A DNA stretch of 47,564 bases. It comes from Candidatus Palauibacter australiensis. Lineage in GTDB: Bacteria > Gemmatimonadota > Gemmatimonadetes > Palauibacterales > Palauibacteraceae. Numbering within the stretch: position 1 is the first letter of the stretch; the number at the start of each line of letters is the position of its first letter. Shown piece after piece: positions 14,367-43,773 of this stretch. Location of the stretch: contig JAPPBA010000068.1 in the NCBI GenBank assembly GCA_026705295.1, positions 1-47,564 on the forward strand. Reading direction: 5' to 3'. The notes beneath the pieces are model-generated. The model worked only from the letters and a program-made list of their open reading frames with translations, did not search any database and was not told the origin of the DNA. The translations under genes and the position numbers were made by a program.

Positions 14367-15449
14367 TCAGTCACGGGTTCCGTGGCGGTCGAAGAACTCG
14401 TCGGTGCGCGCGGGGAGGAGGAGACGGTCGGCGATGGCCGCGATCTCTTCCGCCTCCTTCCACGCCTGTTCCAGTAACCAGAGTTCACCCTCGAGCGCGC
14501 GGCGCTCCTGCTCTTCGTGAAGGGACATTTCGAGCGCGAGGCGGGTGGGCTTGGACATGCTGCGGATCCGTCCCCTCCGGCTGAGCCTGCCAACACGAGC
14601 CCGGTTGGCCACGTCGGCGAGGAACCGGCTGGGGTGGCCGCTGGATTCGATTTCTGCCACGGCCCTTTGGACGGCGGAGCGGGAACCGCCCCATCCGTTC
14701 AGGTGGGGGACGATGGCGGCTGCCACCCGGCGGGCGTCTTCGCCTGCGAACCAGGCCTTCCGCCCCGAGCGCTTGATCTCGACGCCGAAGCCCAGGTCGG
14801 CATCGTCCGGCAATATGCGAATGGACGCAAGGTCGAGGAGTCTGAACTTCGCGACGTTCTTGGGAGTGACGACGCCGTCCTCGCCGGGCTTTCCGCCGAC
14901 CCGGACCCTGGCCATCGGGCGGAGGTAGGCCCATGCGACGATCGGCCACCAAGCGGCGACCCCCCACGCGGCCGCGACCGGCAAGGAGAGCTGCAGACCA
15001 GCCAGCAACCACCCGCCCCCCAGGCCGGCGGCGGTGCCGAGACCGGCACGGCGCATGCGCGTGCCGAACTGGTCGCCGTACCGCCAGGCGGCGAACTCAC
15101 GCCGCGGCGGCTTCCCGATCCGCACCAGGTCCAGGCCTTCCCGGTGGCGTGCAATGCCGATGTTGCCGGTCGAGGCGCGGGTGCGCGTGTCGCGGAAGAT
15201 GCGCTCGCAGGTCTCGATTGCCTCCCAGCGCTCCTCGAGCGGGGTCAGGTTCCACCGGTGGCACTTCCTGCACACCACCCAGAGCCGCCCCTTCGCCGAG
15301 TCGAAGGCGAGCCTCCGTCCGACCGGGAACTCCTCTACCACCTCGTTGGAGTCGAGGGGCTTCTTGCAGAAGATGCAGGTCTTGTACACACGCTCGTCCT
15401 TGTACACGCGCTCGGCGTCGGCCGTCAGGCGCCAGGCTGAAGTTGCCAC
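14367..15449 (-). CDS. zinc-ribbon membrane protein, 360 aa
   Basis: The N-terminal part has two CxxC pairs (TCIFCKK near residue 25 and VVCRKCHRW near 60) that should bind zinc. Two membrane helices lie at about 135-175, separated by a short turn. A soluble domain with basic and tryptophan-containing stretches follows, and the C-terminus is a long charged helix (LALEMSLHEEQERRALEGELWLLEQAWKEA). No family is recognised. The GTG start lies 2 bases after a 20-bp palindrome (15452-15471), leaving no room for a normal ribosome-binding site. A direct repeat encodes ERVYKDERVYK near the start, and an internal GTG there may be the true start. Confidence 0.65.
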   Translation of the reverse strand: MATSAWRLTADAERVYKDERVYKTCIFCKKPLDSNEVVEEFPVGRRLAFDSAKGRLWVVCRKCHRWNLTPLEERWEAIETCERIFRDTRTRASTGNIGIARHREGLDLVRIGKPPRREFAAWRYGDQFGTRMRRAGLGTAAGLGGGWLLAGLQLSLPVAAAWGVAAWWPIVAWAYLRPMARVRVGGKPGEDGVVTPKNVAKFRLLDLASIRILPDDADLGFGVEIKRSGRKAWFAGEDARRVAAAIVPHLNGWGGSRSAVQRAVAEIESSGHPSRFLADVANRARVGRLSRRGRIRSMSKPTRLALEMSLHEEQERRALEGELWLLEQAWKEAEEIAAIADRLLLPARTDEFFDRHGTRD

Positions 15450-15451
15450 GA

Positions 15452-15471
15452 GACGTTCCCGCGGGAACGTC
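15452..15471. repeat. dispersed palindrome, copy 1
   Basis: GACGTTCCCGCGGGAACGTC is a 20-bp perfect palindrome at the 5' end of the zinc-ribbon gene. It shares the 18-bp core ACGTTCCCGCGGGAACGT with copies at 29203-29220 and 42796-42815. Chance recurrence of an 18-mer three times in 47 kb is negligible. Confidence 0.9.
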
Positions 15472-27460: not shown

Positions 27461-29128
27461 TCAGAAGGCCACGGGCTCCTTGAAGCGGCCGTACACCTTC
27501 TCCAGCACGATCCGGATCTCGCCCAGCGTCGCGTAGGCCCGCACGGCGTCGAGCAGGGGCGGCAGCAGGTTCTCGTCCTCGCGCGCGGCCCGCCCCAGCG
27601 CCTCGAGCGCCCGCTCCACCGCGCCGGAGTCGCGGCGCGCGCGGAGATCCGCCAGCCGCGCCTCCTGAATGGCCGCGGCCTCCTCCCCGATCTTCAGAAT
27701 CTCGATCGGGGGCTCCTCCGCATCCTCGAACCGGTTCACGCCCACGATGGTCTGCGTCCCCTTCTCCACCTCATCCTGGAACCGGCGCGCGGAAGCCGCG
27801 ATCTGCGCCTGGAAGTAGCCGGACTCGATCCCGTACACGACCCCGCCGATGTCGTCGATCTCGCGGAAGATGTCCTCCGCCTCCGCCTCGAGTTCGTCCG
27901 TCAGCGACTCGACGTAGTAGGAACCCGCGAGGGGATCGATCGTGTTCGGGACGCCGGTCTCGTAGGCGAGGATCTGCTGCGTGCGCAGGGCGATCTTCGC
28001 CGCCTCCTCGGTGGGGAGCGCGAGCGTCTCGTCCATCGCGTTCGTGTGCAGCGACTGCGTGCCGCCGAGCGCGGCCGCCATCGCCTGGTACGCGACCCGC
28101 ACGATGTTGTTGTGCGGCTGCTGGGCGGTGAGCGAGACGCCGGCCGTCTGGGCATGCGTCCGCAGCCTCAGGCTCCGGGGATCCCGCGCCCCGTAGGCGT
28201 CGCGCATGTGCCGGGCCCAGATGCGGCGGCCCGCCCGGAACTTCGCGATCTCCTCGAAGAAGTCGTTATGCACGTCCCAGAAGAAGGAGAGCCGCGGCGC
28301 GAAGCTGTCCACGTCGAGCCCGCGTTCGATGCCCCGCTCCACGTAGGTGAAGCCGTTCTTGAGCGTGTAGGCGAGTTCCTGCGCGGCGGTCGCCCCCGCC
28401 TCGCGGATGTGATAGCCGGAGATGGAGATCGTGTTGAAGCGCGGCGCGGCGTCCGCCGACCACTCGAAGATGTCGGCGATGATCTTGAGCGCGGGCTCGG
28501 GCGGGAAGATCCACGCGTGCTGGGCCTGGTATTCCTTGAGGATGTCGTTCTGGATCGTGCCCCGGACCCGGTCGAGCGGCACCCCCTGGTTCTCCGCCGT
28601 CACCAGGAGGAAGGCGTACAGCATGAGCGCGGGCCCGTTGATCGTCATCGACACGGAGACCTTGTCGAGCGGGATCCCGTCGAAGAGCGTCTCCATGTCG
28701 GCGAGGCTCGAGATGGCGACGCCGCACTTCCCCACCTCTCCCTCGGAGCGGCGGTCGTCGGAGTCGTACCCCATGAGGGTGGGGAAGTCGAAGGCGACGG
28801 AAAGCCCCGTCTGTCCGCGCCTGAGGAGGTACTTGTAGCGCTCGTTCGTCTCGTGCGCGGTGGCGAAGCCGGAGAAGAGCCGCATCGTCCACAGCTTCGT
28901 GCGGTACATCGAATGATACGGGCCGCGCGTGAACGGGAACTCGCCGGGCGTGCCGAGCCGGTCCAGGTATCCCGCGGGGCCGGTGTCGCCGGCGTCGAGG
29001 GGGGTGTAGAGCGGCTTGATCTCGCGCCCGGAGATGCTCCGGAAGCTGGTGTCGTCGCGCTGCGGCGCCTGGCGGAAGACCGCCTCCCACAACTCGAGTT
29101 GATCGCTCAGCGCGCCGTGCTTGCTCAT
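27461..29128 (-). CDS. acyl-CoA mutase large subunit, isobutyryl-CoA-mutase-type
   Basis: A 555-residue catalytic TIM-barrel subunit of the adenosylcobalamin-dependent acyl-CoA mutases: [60 protein letters not shown] and [14 protein letters not shown]. The cobalamin domain (DxHxxG) is absent, so a separate small subunit is needed; none is in the window. Aligning ungapped to Propionibacterium MutB, Tyr89 is Phe85 and Arg207 is Gln203, the swaps that distinguish isobutyryl-CoA mutase from methylmalonyl-CoA mutase. Length also suits the split IcmA. His240 (MutB His244) is kept. MeaB is encoded 1 kb away. Confidence 0.88.
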
Positions 29129-29202: not shown

Positions 29203-29220
29203 ACGTTCCCGCGGGAACGT
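29203..29220. repeat. dispersed palindrome, copy 2
   Basis: ACGTTCCCGCGGGAACGT is the 18-bp core of the palindrome, located in the 125-base gap between the divergent mutase (start 29128) and the plus-strand barrel gene (start 29254). It is 75 bases from the first ATG and 34 from the second, a normal operator position. Confidence 0.9.
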
Positions 29221-29253: not shown

Positions 29254-30096
29254 ATGCGCAGACGATGGATGGATGGGGCCCTCGCGATCGGGTCGCTCTT
29301 CGCGATGACCGCGGGGTCCGCCCACGGGCAGCGGGGACCGCTCGTGGCGGACCGGCCGGACTTTACCGAGGCGGCGGCGACCGTGGGGCGCGGCGTGGTC
29401 CAGCTCGAGTTCGGCTACGCGTACGAGTACGACCGGCCGGGAGGCAGCGACGGCGGCCGCGGCGGCGTGTGGACGCACTCGCTGGGCGAACCTCTCCTGC
29501 GGATCGGGGTGCTCGCCGAGAGTCTGGAACTTCGGCTGGGCCTGAGCCCCGTGTCCGTGGGCGCCGGGGCGGACGGGCGGAACATCACCGAGACGGGGAT
29601 GGAAGACCTCTACCTGGGAGTCAAGTTGGCCCTGACCGAACAGGAGGGGCTACGGCCGGCGATCGCGATCCTTCCGCAGGTGACGGTCCCCTCGGGAAGC
29701 GACGCGTTCACGAGCGACCGCGCGCTGCCGGGAGTGAACTTCACCTACGGCTGGGACGTCACGGAGGACGTCTCGCTGGCGGGCAGCACGCAGATGAACC
29801 GGGCACTGAGCGATGCCGGCGGCGGAGGCCCCCAAGGCGGAGGAACGGAGTACGCCGAGTGGGCGCAGTCGGCCGTGGCCGGGTTCGCCGTGGGCGCGCG
29901 GGCCGGGGTCTACGCGGAGTGGTTCGCCTTCTTCCACGCGGAACCGGATGGGACCCGGGCGGAACACTACGCCAACGGCGGGTTCACCTGGAGCTTCAGC
30001 GACGATCTGCAGTGGGACATCCGCGTCGGCGTGGGGCTGAACGAGTCCGCCACGGGCTTCTTCACGGGAACGGGACTCGTCGTCAGGTTCCCTTGA
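29254..30096 (+). CDS. MetA-pathway-type outer-membrane protein
   Basis: A 280-residue protein with a signal peptide (about 1-25, ending AHGQ) and the pattern RGPLVADRPDFTEAAATVGRGVVQLEFGYAYEYDR, followed by ETGMEDLYLGVKLALTEQEG and AIAILPQVTVPSGSDAFTS, as in the PF13557 (phenol MetA pathway-type) beta-barrels. Many family members have no link to phenol. AGGCAGGAT precedes the ATG. Its last 14 bases overlap the 3' end of meaB on the other strand. Confidence 0.82.
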   Translation: MRRRWMDGALAIGSLFAMTAGSAHGQRGPLVADRPDFTEAAATVGRGVVQLEFGYAYEYDRPGGSDGGRGGVWTHSLGEPLLRIGVLAESLELRLGLSPVSVGAGADGRNITETGMEDLYLGVKLALTEQEGLRPAIAILPQVTVPSGSDAFTSDRALPGVNFTYGWDVTEDVSLAGSTQMNRALSDAGGGGPQGGGTEYAEWAQSAVAGFAVGARAGVYAEWFAFFHAEPDGTRAEHYANGGFTWSFSDDLQWDIRVGVGLNESATGFFTGTGLVVRFP

Positions 30097-40954: not shown

Positions 40955-42781
40955 ATGGCCATCCGATACGACTCTCTCCTCGCCCGGGCCCTCGCCCGCG
41001 AGATCCTCGACCGCTGGCGGGGCGTCCGTATCGCCGGCCTCCGCATGGCATCCGGACGGCGCGCCGTGGAACTCGCCTTCGAGGACGGGTCGCGGCTCGT
41101 CGCGATGCTGCACCCGCTGCACGGGTACGTCCTTGAACTGGGCGCCGATGCGCCGGCCTCGGGCGTGGAGGGAAAGGCGCTGCGGGTCGGACGCCTGTCG
41201 CTCGTGGACGCGCGGGCGCCGGCGGATGAACGCGCCCTGCTCCTGACGTTCGGCGACCGGGCGGGGCGACCGTGGGAGCAGCTCGCGATCGAACTCCCGA
41301 CCCGCGGCCGGAACGCCCTGCACTGCCGGCGAGAGGAGGAGTCCGGCGCGGAGCCCGGTCCGGCGGAGTCAGGTACCGGGGGGCCCGGCACCGAGGGGCC
41401 CGGGGGCGACCCCCGATCGGCGTGGCGCATCGAAGCGGCCCTCCTGGCGCGGGATGCGGGCGACCGCTCGCTGCGTCGCGGGGCGCCGTACGTGCCGCCT
41501 TCGTCCGCGCGGCGAGCGGTGGCCGCTCCGCCATCGGAGGCGGAATGGGCCGCCGTGCTGGCGGGAGACGAGGCCGACCGCCGGCGGGCCGTGCTGCGGA
41601 CGTGGGCGTGGACGAGCGCGCTCAACGTCGACTGGATCCTGGCCGGGTCCGATACGGCGGAGACGTACGCGCGATACCGGGCGCTCCACGCGCTCGCGGC
41701 GGCGCTTGAGCGCGGCCCGGCCGGGTCCGATGCGCCGGGCGCGCCGCCCCGACCGGCCTTCGTGCTCGACCGCCCGTGGGGCCCCCAGCCCTATCCGCAC
41801 CCCGCCCAGGCCGGCAGCGGGTCCGCCGCCGGACTGCTGACCGCGGCCGCGCAACTGCTCGCCCCCGGCGGCGGCCCCGCCCCCGCCCTCCAGACCCTCC
41901 CGGCGGCGGCCGACGACGACGACGGGGACGAAGCCGCGCAGATCCGGAAGCGCCTCCGGGCGCGCCGGAAGCGGCACCTGCGCCGGGCCGCCGCGCTCGA
42001 GCGGCAACTGGCCGCGGCCGGTCCGCCGGACGAGCCCCGCCTCCTCGGCCAGATCCTCCTCGCCCGCAAGGACGAGGTGCCGAAGGGCGCCTCCGCCGTG
42101 ACGCTGCCGGGCTTCGACGGCGCGCCGCGCGAGATCGCGCTCAACCCCGCGCGCGATGCGGTCGCCAACGCGGAGGCCTTCTTCGACGAGGCCGGGCGCC
42201 GGGAGCGCGCGCGGGAGCGCCTGCCCGAGGCGATCGCGGCGGCCCGGGAGCGCGCGGCCAAGTTCGACGCTCACCTCGAGCGGCTCGCCGAGTCGGGTCC
42301 GTCGGACGCCCTGTGGACCGCGGCCGGCGGGAGACCGATCCGCACCGGCGCGGGCGGGAGACGGGCGGAAGGCCCGGATCTCCGGGTGCCCTACACGCGG
42401 CTCCGGTCCTCGGGCGGGCTGGAGATCCGGGTCGGGCGCGGCGCCCGCGACAACGACGACCTCACCTTCCGCCACTCCGCGCCGGACGACATCTGGCTGC
42501 ACGCCTCCCAGGCCGCGGGCGCGCACGTGATTCTGCGCTGGGGGCGAAGGGACGAGAATCCACCGCGGCGCGACCTGCTCGAAGCCGCGACCGTGGCGGC
42601 GGTCCACAGCGGGGCGCGCCACAACCGCACGGCCCCGGTCGTCTGGACCCGCCGTAAGTACGTGCGCAAGCCGCGGAAGTCTCCTCCCGGCACGGTGACC
42701 CCGGACCGCGTCCAAACGATCTTCGTCGAACCCGATTCGGACCTCGTGAAGGCAATGGTCCGGCGCATGGAGGAAGCATGA
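40955..42781 (+). CDS. NFACT family protein (RqcH-like)
   Basis: A 608-residue protein with a diverged NFACT-N domain (about 1-200: YDSLLARALAREILDRWRGVRIAG, AMLHPLHGYVL), a coiled-coil segment (about 330-460, KRLRARRKRHLRRAAALERQLAA) and a clear NFACT-R domain (RDNDDLTFRHSAPDDIWLHASQAAGAHVIL, GARHNRTAPVVWTRRKYVRKPRKSPPGTV). NFACT/RqcH proteins bind stalled 50S subunits and add C-terminal tails for degradation. The alanine- and proline-rich spacer (about 260-310) is poorly conserved. It overlaps the next gene as ATGA. Confidence 0.85.
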   Translation: MAIRYDSLLARALAREILDRWRGVRIAGLRMASGRRAVELAFEDGSRLVAMLHPLHGYVLELGADAPASGVEGKALRVGRLSLVDARAPADERALLLTFGDRAGRPWEQLAIELPTRGRNALHCRREEESGAEPGPAESGTGGPGTEGPGGDPRSAWRIEAALLARDAGDRSLRRGAPYVPPSSARRAVAAPPSEAEWAAVLAGDEADRRRAVLRTWAWTSALNVDWILAGSDTAETYARYRALHALAAALERGPAGSDAPGAPPRPAFVLDRPWGPQPYPHPAQAGSGSAAGLLTAAAQLLAPGGGPAPALQTLPAAADDDDGDEAAQIRKRLRARRKRHLRRAAALERQLAAAGPPDEPRLLGQILLARKDEVPKGASAVTLPGFDGAPREIALNPARDAVANAEAFFDEAGRRERARERLPEAIAAARERAAKFDAHLERLAESGPSDALWTAAGGRPIRTGAGGRRAEGPDLRVPYTRLRSSGGLEIRVGRGARDNDDLTFRHSAPDDIWLHASQAAGAHVILRWGRRDENPPRRDLLEAATVAAVHSGARHNRTAPVVWTRRKYVRKPRKSPPGTVTPDRVQTIFVEPDSDLVKAMVRRMEEA

Positions 42782-43773
42782 ACGCGCCGCCCGCCGACGT
42801 TCCCGCGGGAACGTCCCGCGGCGAGGACGCGAAGCTCGACCGCGCCCGCGGCTGCCTCATCGGCCTGATCGCCGGCGATTCGCTCGGCAGCCTCGTCGAG
42901 TTCCAGTCGCCCGAGGACATCCGCCTCCGCTATCCCGACGGGGTCCGCGACCTCGAGGATGGGGGCACGTTCGACACGCTCGCGGGACAGCCGACGGACG
43001 ACTCCGAGATGGCGCTGGCGCTGGCCCGCACATTGATCGCGCGCGGCGCGTACGACCCGGAGGCGGCGAACGGCGCCTACCGGGAGTGGCTCGACTCGGA
43101 CCCGTTCGACTGCGGCCTAACGATCCGCGCCGGCCTGCTCGGAAACCCGCGCCGCGAGAGCCAGGCCAACGGGGCGCTAATGCGCATCGGTCCGCTGGGC
43201 ATCTTCGGCTGCCGCCATCCACTCGACGCGGTCGCGCGCTGGGCGCGGGAAGACGCCCGCCTCACGCACCCGCACCGCGTCTGTCTCGACGCGAACGCGC
43301 TGTTCGCGATGGCGCTCGCGCACGCCATCGACCGCGGCCCGACGCCACGCGCGTTGTACGATCGGATCGCCGCGTGGGCGAACGAGGAGGGGATCTGCCC
43401 GGACGTGCGGGCGTGTGTCGAGGCAGCCGCCGCCGGGCCGCCTGACGACTACATGACGCACATGGGCTGGGTCCTGATCGCGCTCCGCAACGCGCTGTGG
43501 CAGCTGCGGCACGCGCCGTCGCTCGAGGAGGGCGTGATCGACAGCGTGATGAGGGGCGGCGACACCGACACGAACGCCGCGATCTGCGGGGCGCTCCTGG
43601 GCGCGGTCCACGGGCTGGAGGCCGTGCCCGCGCGCTGGACCGGGCCGATCCTCCGCTGCCGCCCCGAAGCGGACCGACCCGGCGTCCGGCGCCCTCGCCC
43701 GAAGCCCTACTGGCCGACCGACGCCCTCAACCTCGCCGCTCAGCTCCTGCGTCCGGAACCCCCCGCGAGCTGA
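42778..43773 (+). CDS. ADP-ribosylglycohydrolase family protein
   Basis: A 331-residue DraG-like protein. DRARGCLIGLIAGDSLGSLVEF begins the domain at about residue 21, followed by GQPTDDSEMALALARTL and VMRGGDTDTNAAICGALLGAVHG, the two acidic magnesium-binding motifs. It should remove ADP-ribose from proteins or small molecules. It is coupled to the NFACT gene by ATGA. Residues 7-13 are encoded by the dispersed palindrome (DVPAGTS), so the leader before the domain looks like an insertion. Confidence 0.88.
   Translation: MNAPPADVPAGTSRGEDAKLDRARGCLIGLIAGDSLGSLVEFQSPEDIRLRYPDGVRDLEDGGTFDTLAGQPTDDSEMALALARTLIARGAYDPEAANGAYREWLDSDPFDCGLTIRAGLLGNPRRESQANGALMRIGPLGIFGCRHPLDAVARWAREDARLTHPHRVCLDANALFAMALAHAIDRGPTPRALYDRIAAWANEEGICPDVRACVEAAAAGPPDDYMTHMGWVLIALRNALWQLRHAPSLEEGVIDSVMRGGDTDTNAAICGALLGAVHGLEAVPARWTGPILRCRPEADRPGVRRPRPKPYWPTDALNLAAQLLRPEPPAS
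42796..42815. repeat. dispersed palindrome, copy 3
   Basis: GACGTTCCCGCGGGAACGTC, 20-bp perfect, encodes residues 7-13 of the ADP-ribosylglycohydrolase, 18 bases after its ATG. It is the only copy inside a coding frame and is identical to copy 1 over 20 bp. Confidence 0.9.

Follow-up and report, generated by a model that had tools for sequence, protein, structure and literature searches.

Introduction

The usual explanation of REPs is spread driven by RAYTs, together with neutral decay. Noc, SlmA and matS sites are short dyads too, present chromosome-wide in tens of copies and with no tie to a regulon; the Noc site of B. subtilis is ATTTCCCGGGAAAT. Noc-type nucleoid occlusion goes with a second ParB-family protein besides the chromosomal ParB, and macrodomain sites of the matS type are recognized by their confinement to the region of the terminus. 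HIP1 and DNA-uptake sequences are further examples of over-represented short sequences. REPs are located after stop codons, some lie in frame within genes, and they form doublets with structured spacers (PMC3733652). REP singlets are remnants of such doublets, and published singlets decay faster than doublets do (PMC3116915). Among the REPs tagged with CGTC is counted the Neisseria dRS3 element, ATTCCC(N8)GGGAAT (PMC3898611).

Here we describe a perfect palindrome from Candidatus Palauibacter (Gemmatimonadota), an uncultured, sponge- and sediment-dwelling bacterium, that looks like an undescribed member of the REP class that does without a transposase. The sequence TTCCCGCGGGAA was not found in the literature we searched, where 35 texts hold shorter substrings and the 25 of them listed look unrelated by title, and palindromes go unmentioned in a published account of this order.

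Results

The window, by which we mean the whole 47,564-nucleotide stretch of DNA analyzed, contains three matches to the 18-mer ACGTTCCCGCGGGAACGT when up to three mismatches are allowed, and all three are perfect (15453-15470, 29203-29220 and 42797-42814), as the original prediction had it; dinucleotide shuffles of the window average 0.09 such matches and never reach three. Copies 1 and 3 do extend to the same 20-mer, GACGTTCCCGCGGGAACGTC, and copy 2 is without the extension. The gene contexts described earlier are also correct. Copy 1, a 20-bp perfect palindrome at 15452-15471, sits in a divergent spacer directly 5' of a minus-strand gene (14367-15449) with no assigned family, whose 360-aa product carries N-terminal CxxC pairs. 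This protein matched no Pfam or NCBIfam family, and most of the Palauibacter genomes searched encode several paralogues of it. Copy 2, an 18-bp palindrome at 29203-29220, occupies the divergent spacer between the gene for a methylmalonyl-CoA mutase large subunit on its left (27461-29128, minus strand; Pfam PF01642, E 4e-222) and an outer-membrane-type gene on its right (29254-30096, plus strand; Phenol_MetA_deg, PF13557, E 7e-25). Copy 3, again 20 bp (42796-42815), lies within codons 7-13 (DVPAGTS) of an ADP-ribosylglycohydrolase gene (42778-43773, plus strand; PF03747, E 4e-62), in an N-terminal extension; the PF03747 domain begins at residue 25, downstream of the residues that the palindrome encodes. 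None of the three palindromes is assigned a strand.

The palindrome is clearly not peculiar to the window. The host genome (3.58 Mb in 188 contigs) has 33 exact copies of the 18-mer and 82 with three or fewer mismatches, compared with 0 for a reversed-pattern control, and its 16-bp core, CGTTCCCGCGGGAACG, is present in at least 60 exact copies and in 79 within two mismatches (controls 0-1). Assemblies are fragmented; exact totals come from the whole-genome search and context from 284 kb of the same genome that holds 54 sites. In these 284 kb every TTCCCGCGGGAA (54/54) lies inside a full 16-mer CGTTCCCGCGGGAACG, the core shows no degeneracy among the 54 sites, and no second palindrome family stands out. 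The 20-bp consensus, g-R-CGTTCCCGCGGGAACG-Y-c, adds to the core one purine/pyrimidine step and a preferred G/C. The slightly larger element suspected from the window thus amounts to this 20-bp form, and the flanks farther out are unrelated. Outside full sites, half-sites show no enrichment, on which ground we rejected a DNA-uptake-like sequence.

Gene context, determined with a simple codon-usage gene caller made for this analysis, is strongly biased. Intergenic DNA holds 41 of the 54 sites (76%) and makes up 12% of the sequence (p 2e-27). Between codirectional genes, 21 of 22 sites are nearer the upstream stop codon than the following start (p 5e-6), at a median of 17 nt from that stop in gaps with a median length of 186 nt, and convergent spacers house 10 of the 38 oriented intergenic sites. 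Copies inside genes most commonly read VPAGT. The idea that each copy marks a gene 5' end therefore does not carry over to the genome: since most copies follow stop codons, the three in the window are untypical, and their 5'-end placement is an artefact of a small sample. This bears on the suggestion that the palindrome is a classical operator for one transcription factor. Such an operator would account for the perfect dyad and for the three window copies near 5' ends, but not for the predominance of copies after stops or for 54 sites with no degeneracy in the core, and we found no functional theme or linked gene set among the neighbors. Because these are unrelated housekeeping genes (TIM, CPSase, DapB, amidase) and the sites follow stops, we regard an operator as very unlikely.

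Three unlinked loci carry the palindrome as doublets, in which two copies 52-63 bp apart surround an inner inverted repeat, GGCCAGTnnCnCAACTGGCC, and each doublet folds into a single extended hairpin (z -6.5 to -8). At locus C144 a doublet is present in genome G001, and G016, a nearly identical sister genome, has a singlet and lacks exactly 52 bp. The missing segment corresponds to one palindrome plus the interior, and the difference is a collapse from doublet to singlet. G010 is likewise a singlet at C144, bringing to two the relatives in which the collapse is seen; doublets, at three loci, are a minority of copies. In a different arrangement, at locus C138 (L026:985-1110 and orthologues), a longer GC-rich inverted repeat encloses the palindrome, and the arms of this repeat differ between species in a pattern that may be compensatory.

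Folding raises the possibility that the palindrome acts in RNA, as a hairpin that terminates or protects transcripts at their 3' ends and that, because the palindrome is perfect, could be used on both strands. The short distance to the preceding stop and the share of sites in convergent spacers fit this model, as do the 8-bp stem that the 20-mer forms alone (-12.2 kcal/mol) and the copies, such as that at C138, found at the tip of longer stems. Yet no U-tract follows the hairpin (T makes up 18% downstream compared with 17% in the background, and none of 33 cases has four consecutive T), which led us to reject an intrinsic terminator, and a known RNA family was rejected in the absence of any Rfam match. 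Copies within thiS, within the glycohydrolase gene and in divergent promoters are also conserved, the sequence is invariant beyond what pairing requires, and the base pairs just outside the core show no covariation between arms within the genus. An RNA-level role therefore seems improbable to us.

Among 59 relatives searched, the 18-mer is restricted to the genus: 13 of 16 genus members carry it, and none of the 43 relatives from the family, order and class outside the genus does. Its distribution is that of a genus-level repeat. Counted as 16-mers with up to two mismatches, copies number about 41-80 in the core carriers and only 1-6 in three members of the genus. We located seven site loci, which stand for 60-80 sites, in 16 relatives by concatenated query; followed in up to 12 relatives, they reveal palindrome positions common to about 12 species. 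Copy 1 is intact in G002, G003, G009 and G010, and its region is replaced in G005 and G014. The position of copy 2 is occupied in at least eight species, with an intact palindrome in G001, G002, G003, G005, G007, G010 and G011 and a damaged one in G008 and G015. In the glycohydrolase gene, 11 of 12 relatives retain the palindrome of copy 3, intact in seven and with one or two changes in four, and G008 has a 42-nt in-frame deletion there. A further copy spans codons 10-17 of thiS (G000 C132, L025:2986-3050; orthologues L231-L242), encodes the peptide DVPAGTS, and is found in 12 of 12 species, eight intact and four with one change. It aligns without gaps to the palindrome-free thiS of G004, and therefore at least this copy formed by substitution rather than insertion. 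The comparison of loci turned up neither a target-site duplication nor a clean footprint of insertion. Mapped on a tree built from concatenated flanking sequences, the site patterns are consistent with presence in the clade ancestor followed by repeated loss.

Where a palindrome has been retained, it has changed little: 3.1% of core cells deviate from the species consensus compared with 9.0% of flank cells, about one third, in a test confined to related species and to sites picked as perfect in one genome, and with a p value (7e-9) that ignores the relatedness of the species. Over 669 bp, one contig filed under an Acidobacteria MAG (L147) matches a contig of Palauibacter type (L081) at 100% identity, and this identity makes mis-binning of L147 probable.

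A comparison of orthologues had been expected to tell a mobile element from an operator. Presence/absence differences between species do occur at the seven loci, and they are consistent with losses; about 0.92 Mb of relatives' DNA holds no non-orthologous site (up to one mismatch), where roughly 8-12 would be expected, so the palindrome is not moving now. Of the proposal of a REP-like mobile palindrome, the multiple copies, the extragenic and post-stop placement, the in-frame copies and the hairpin doublets stand, and current mobility and a 5'-end bias do not. An actively mobile, RAYT-driven REPIN would explain the doublets and the presence/absence differences, but the Y1 transposase (PF01797), the only transposase family we searched for, is absent from G000 and from all core-clade genomes and occurs only in G004, G006 and G012, and besides the lack of new sites there is no GTAG tag in the consensus. 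Such an element is, of all the readings considered, the one we find hardest to credit, and we rejected present-day RAYT mobility, as core carriers have no Y1 transposase and no new sites appear. Carriage by phage was rejected as well, with the motif in only three viral contigs.

The core also occurs outside the genus. In many of 25 genomes chosen for holding the 18-mer, the exact 16-mer is present in 3-30 copies per genome (reversed control 0); only the higher counts are informative, since the genomes were picked for this sequence. Carriers from other lineages are Blastococcus, Geodermatophilus, Brachybacterium, Pengzhenrongella, Microlunatus, Propioniferax, a deltaproteobacterial MAG and an actinomycetotal MAG, and in these lineages the palindrome forms pairs about 40 bp apart with different inner hairpins as well as tandem arrays. 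Microlunatus parietis, assembled as a single 7.24-Mb contig, has 30 copies at 16 loci between 2.0 and 5.2 Mb, in contig coordinates that are not distances from the origin. Its stretch from 1.997 to 2.279 Mb (L383-L397) contains tandem palindrome arrays with periods of ~158 bp and 120 bp. Part of the Brachybacterium copies were inherited within paralogous or orthologous genes; the palindrome occupies comparable positions in paralogues that, by eye, resemble DUF222/HNH (13E12-type; L318, L330 and L331). Some actinobacterial copies stand 1.09 kb apart; the two such pairs share no element, and we rejected an autonomous element in the intervening DNA. Single copies in gammaproteobacterial and Rokubacteria MAGs (L142:1668 and L078:2901) are accompanied by A-runs and/or T-runs and look terminator-like. 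We tentatively raise the possibility, to which we give rather little weight, that GTTCCCGCGGGAAC is the site of an uncharacterized sequence-specific chromosome protein, or the end sequence of an uncharacterized mobile hairpin system. One 16-bp specificity would then be common to Gemmatimonadota, several Actinobacteria and some Deltaproteobacteria, each lineage having its own inner hairpins, perhaps with a bias toward the terminus half.

Discussion

The explanation that we favor, with moderate confidence, is a REP-like family of the Palauibacter clade that spread once, is now immobile, and has been kept under constraint. Copy number, gene context, ancestral shared positions, a core that diverges less than its flanks, the doublets, two differences between doublet and singlet, and the absence of RAYTs from the core clade are direct observations. 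With a 16-bp core, CGTTCCCGCGGGAACG, that is perfect and has no loop, and that in most cases continues to GACGTTCCCGCGGGAACGTC, the palindrome would constitute an untagged family of the REP/REPIN kind, and a single genome-wide spread would have preceded the radiation of the clade, most likely in the form of hairpin doublets (palindrome, inner hairpin, palindrome). Many of the present singlets may be collapsed doublets, if what happened at C144 is general. Copies would then have survived where they are least harmful, just 3' of stop codons, and the survivors would have been kept nearly letter-perfect. What keeps them may be a putative dimeric host protein that recognizes double-stranded DNA symmetrically: because the arms do not covary and conserved copies sit in divergent promoters and coding starts, we infer that recognition in double-stranded form is favored, and that the palindrome is probably kept as a dyad-symmetric, protein-bound site. 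As a second choice, the constraint could lie in a hairpin that protects transcript 3' ends. Several findings count against this explanation: the origin of the thiS copy by substitution, the very good preservation of singlets, the survival of only three doublets, and the lack of target-site duplications and clean footprints of insertion.

It is also possible, though we think it unlikely, that the palindrome was never a repeat in this sense and is instead a chromosome-organization site like matS or the sites of SlmA and Noc, with a dedicated dimeric protein acting on 50-80 dispersed copies that evolve in place wherever genes are left undisturbed. The gapless origin of the thiS copy would agree with this model. 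So would a strict, non-degenerate dyad whose outer positions tolerate R/Y without covariation between arms, the occurrence of full sites only, conserved in place and without enrichment of half-sites, the lack of a regulon among the neighbors, and a copy number that holds steady near 50 or near 80 in each genome. Distribution along the chromosome may point the same way: the Microlunatus parietis copies all fall in one part of the contig, and Palauibacter G007 has no copy within 100 kb of dnaA and only three on its 604-kb dnaA contig. But the sparseness near the G007 origin is statistically weak, with contigs unordered, GC skew flat and a dif search uninformative. Doublets that share an inner hairpin at unlinked loci look like repeats, as do the Microlunatus tandem arrays, and copy numbers differ widely from one carrier lineage to another. 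Nor are there extra ParB/Noc paralogues: each genome has at most one PF02195 match, no second ParB-family protein was found, and a Noc paralogue was rejected because ParB is single-copy.

A family with no RAYT in its core carriers and no fast decay of singlets runs contrary to the usual account of REPs, and it is well suited to asking whether palindromes of this kind persist because of a function. Of most interest is the recurrence of the same 16-mer in unrelated Actinobacteria and other phyla, because the reuse of this exact sequence in unrelated phyla would, if it reflects one system, point to a widespread and undescribed protein.

How, then, does the proposed once-spread, constrained REP-like family compare with the systems already described? 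HIP1 and DNA-uptake sequences differ from the palindrome, which has far fewer copies, is extragenic and shows no enrichment of half-sites. The B. subtilis Noc site ATTTCCCGGGAAAT resembles the arms of the palindrome, but its center is different, and Palauibacter genomes have no second ParB-family protein. The likeness to the GTAG-tagged, RAYT-associated REPs and REPINs is closer, and comprises a short palindrome with a copy number in the tens to hundreds, post-stop placement, in-frame copies, doublets with structured spacers that fold into one hairpin, and singlets that may be remnants of doublets. Unlike them, the Palauibacter palindrome is a perfect dyad without a separate loop, with no GTAG in the flanking consensus of the 54 sites and no RAYT in core carriers; most of its copies are singlets, and these are strongly conserved where species share a position. 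With CGTC REPs it shares TTCCC...GGGAA arms and stems of 8-9 bp, and possibly also the lack of a dedicated transposase (here for Y1, the family searched); the arms of Neisseria dRS3 resemble half of the palindrome. It lacks, however, the unpaired CGTC tag, the CCA-type tail and the 4-5 nt spacer of that group: CGTC occurs only as the paired end of the 20-mer. The Palauibacter DNA examined yielded neither CGTC-tagged elements nor spaced TTCCCGC...GCGGGAA ones, and for this reason we rejected CGTC-REP ancestry in the genus. The palindrome nonetheless has the features by which REPs are broadly recognized, with at least 60 exact 16-mers, 76% of sites intergenic and near the 3' ends of genes, and a minority of hairpin-folding doublets. 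It fits best as neither a GTAG REP nor a CGTC REP, but as a new variety within REPs in the broad sense.
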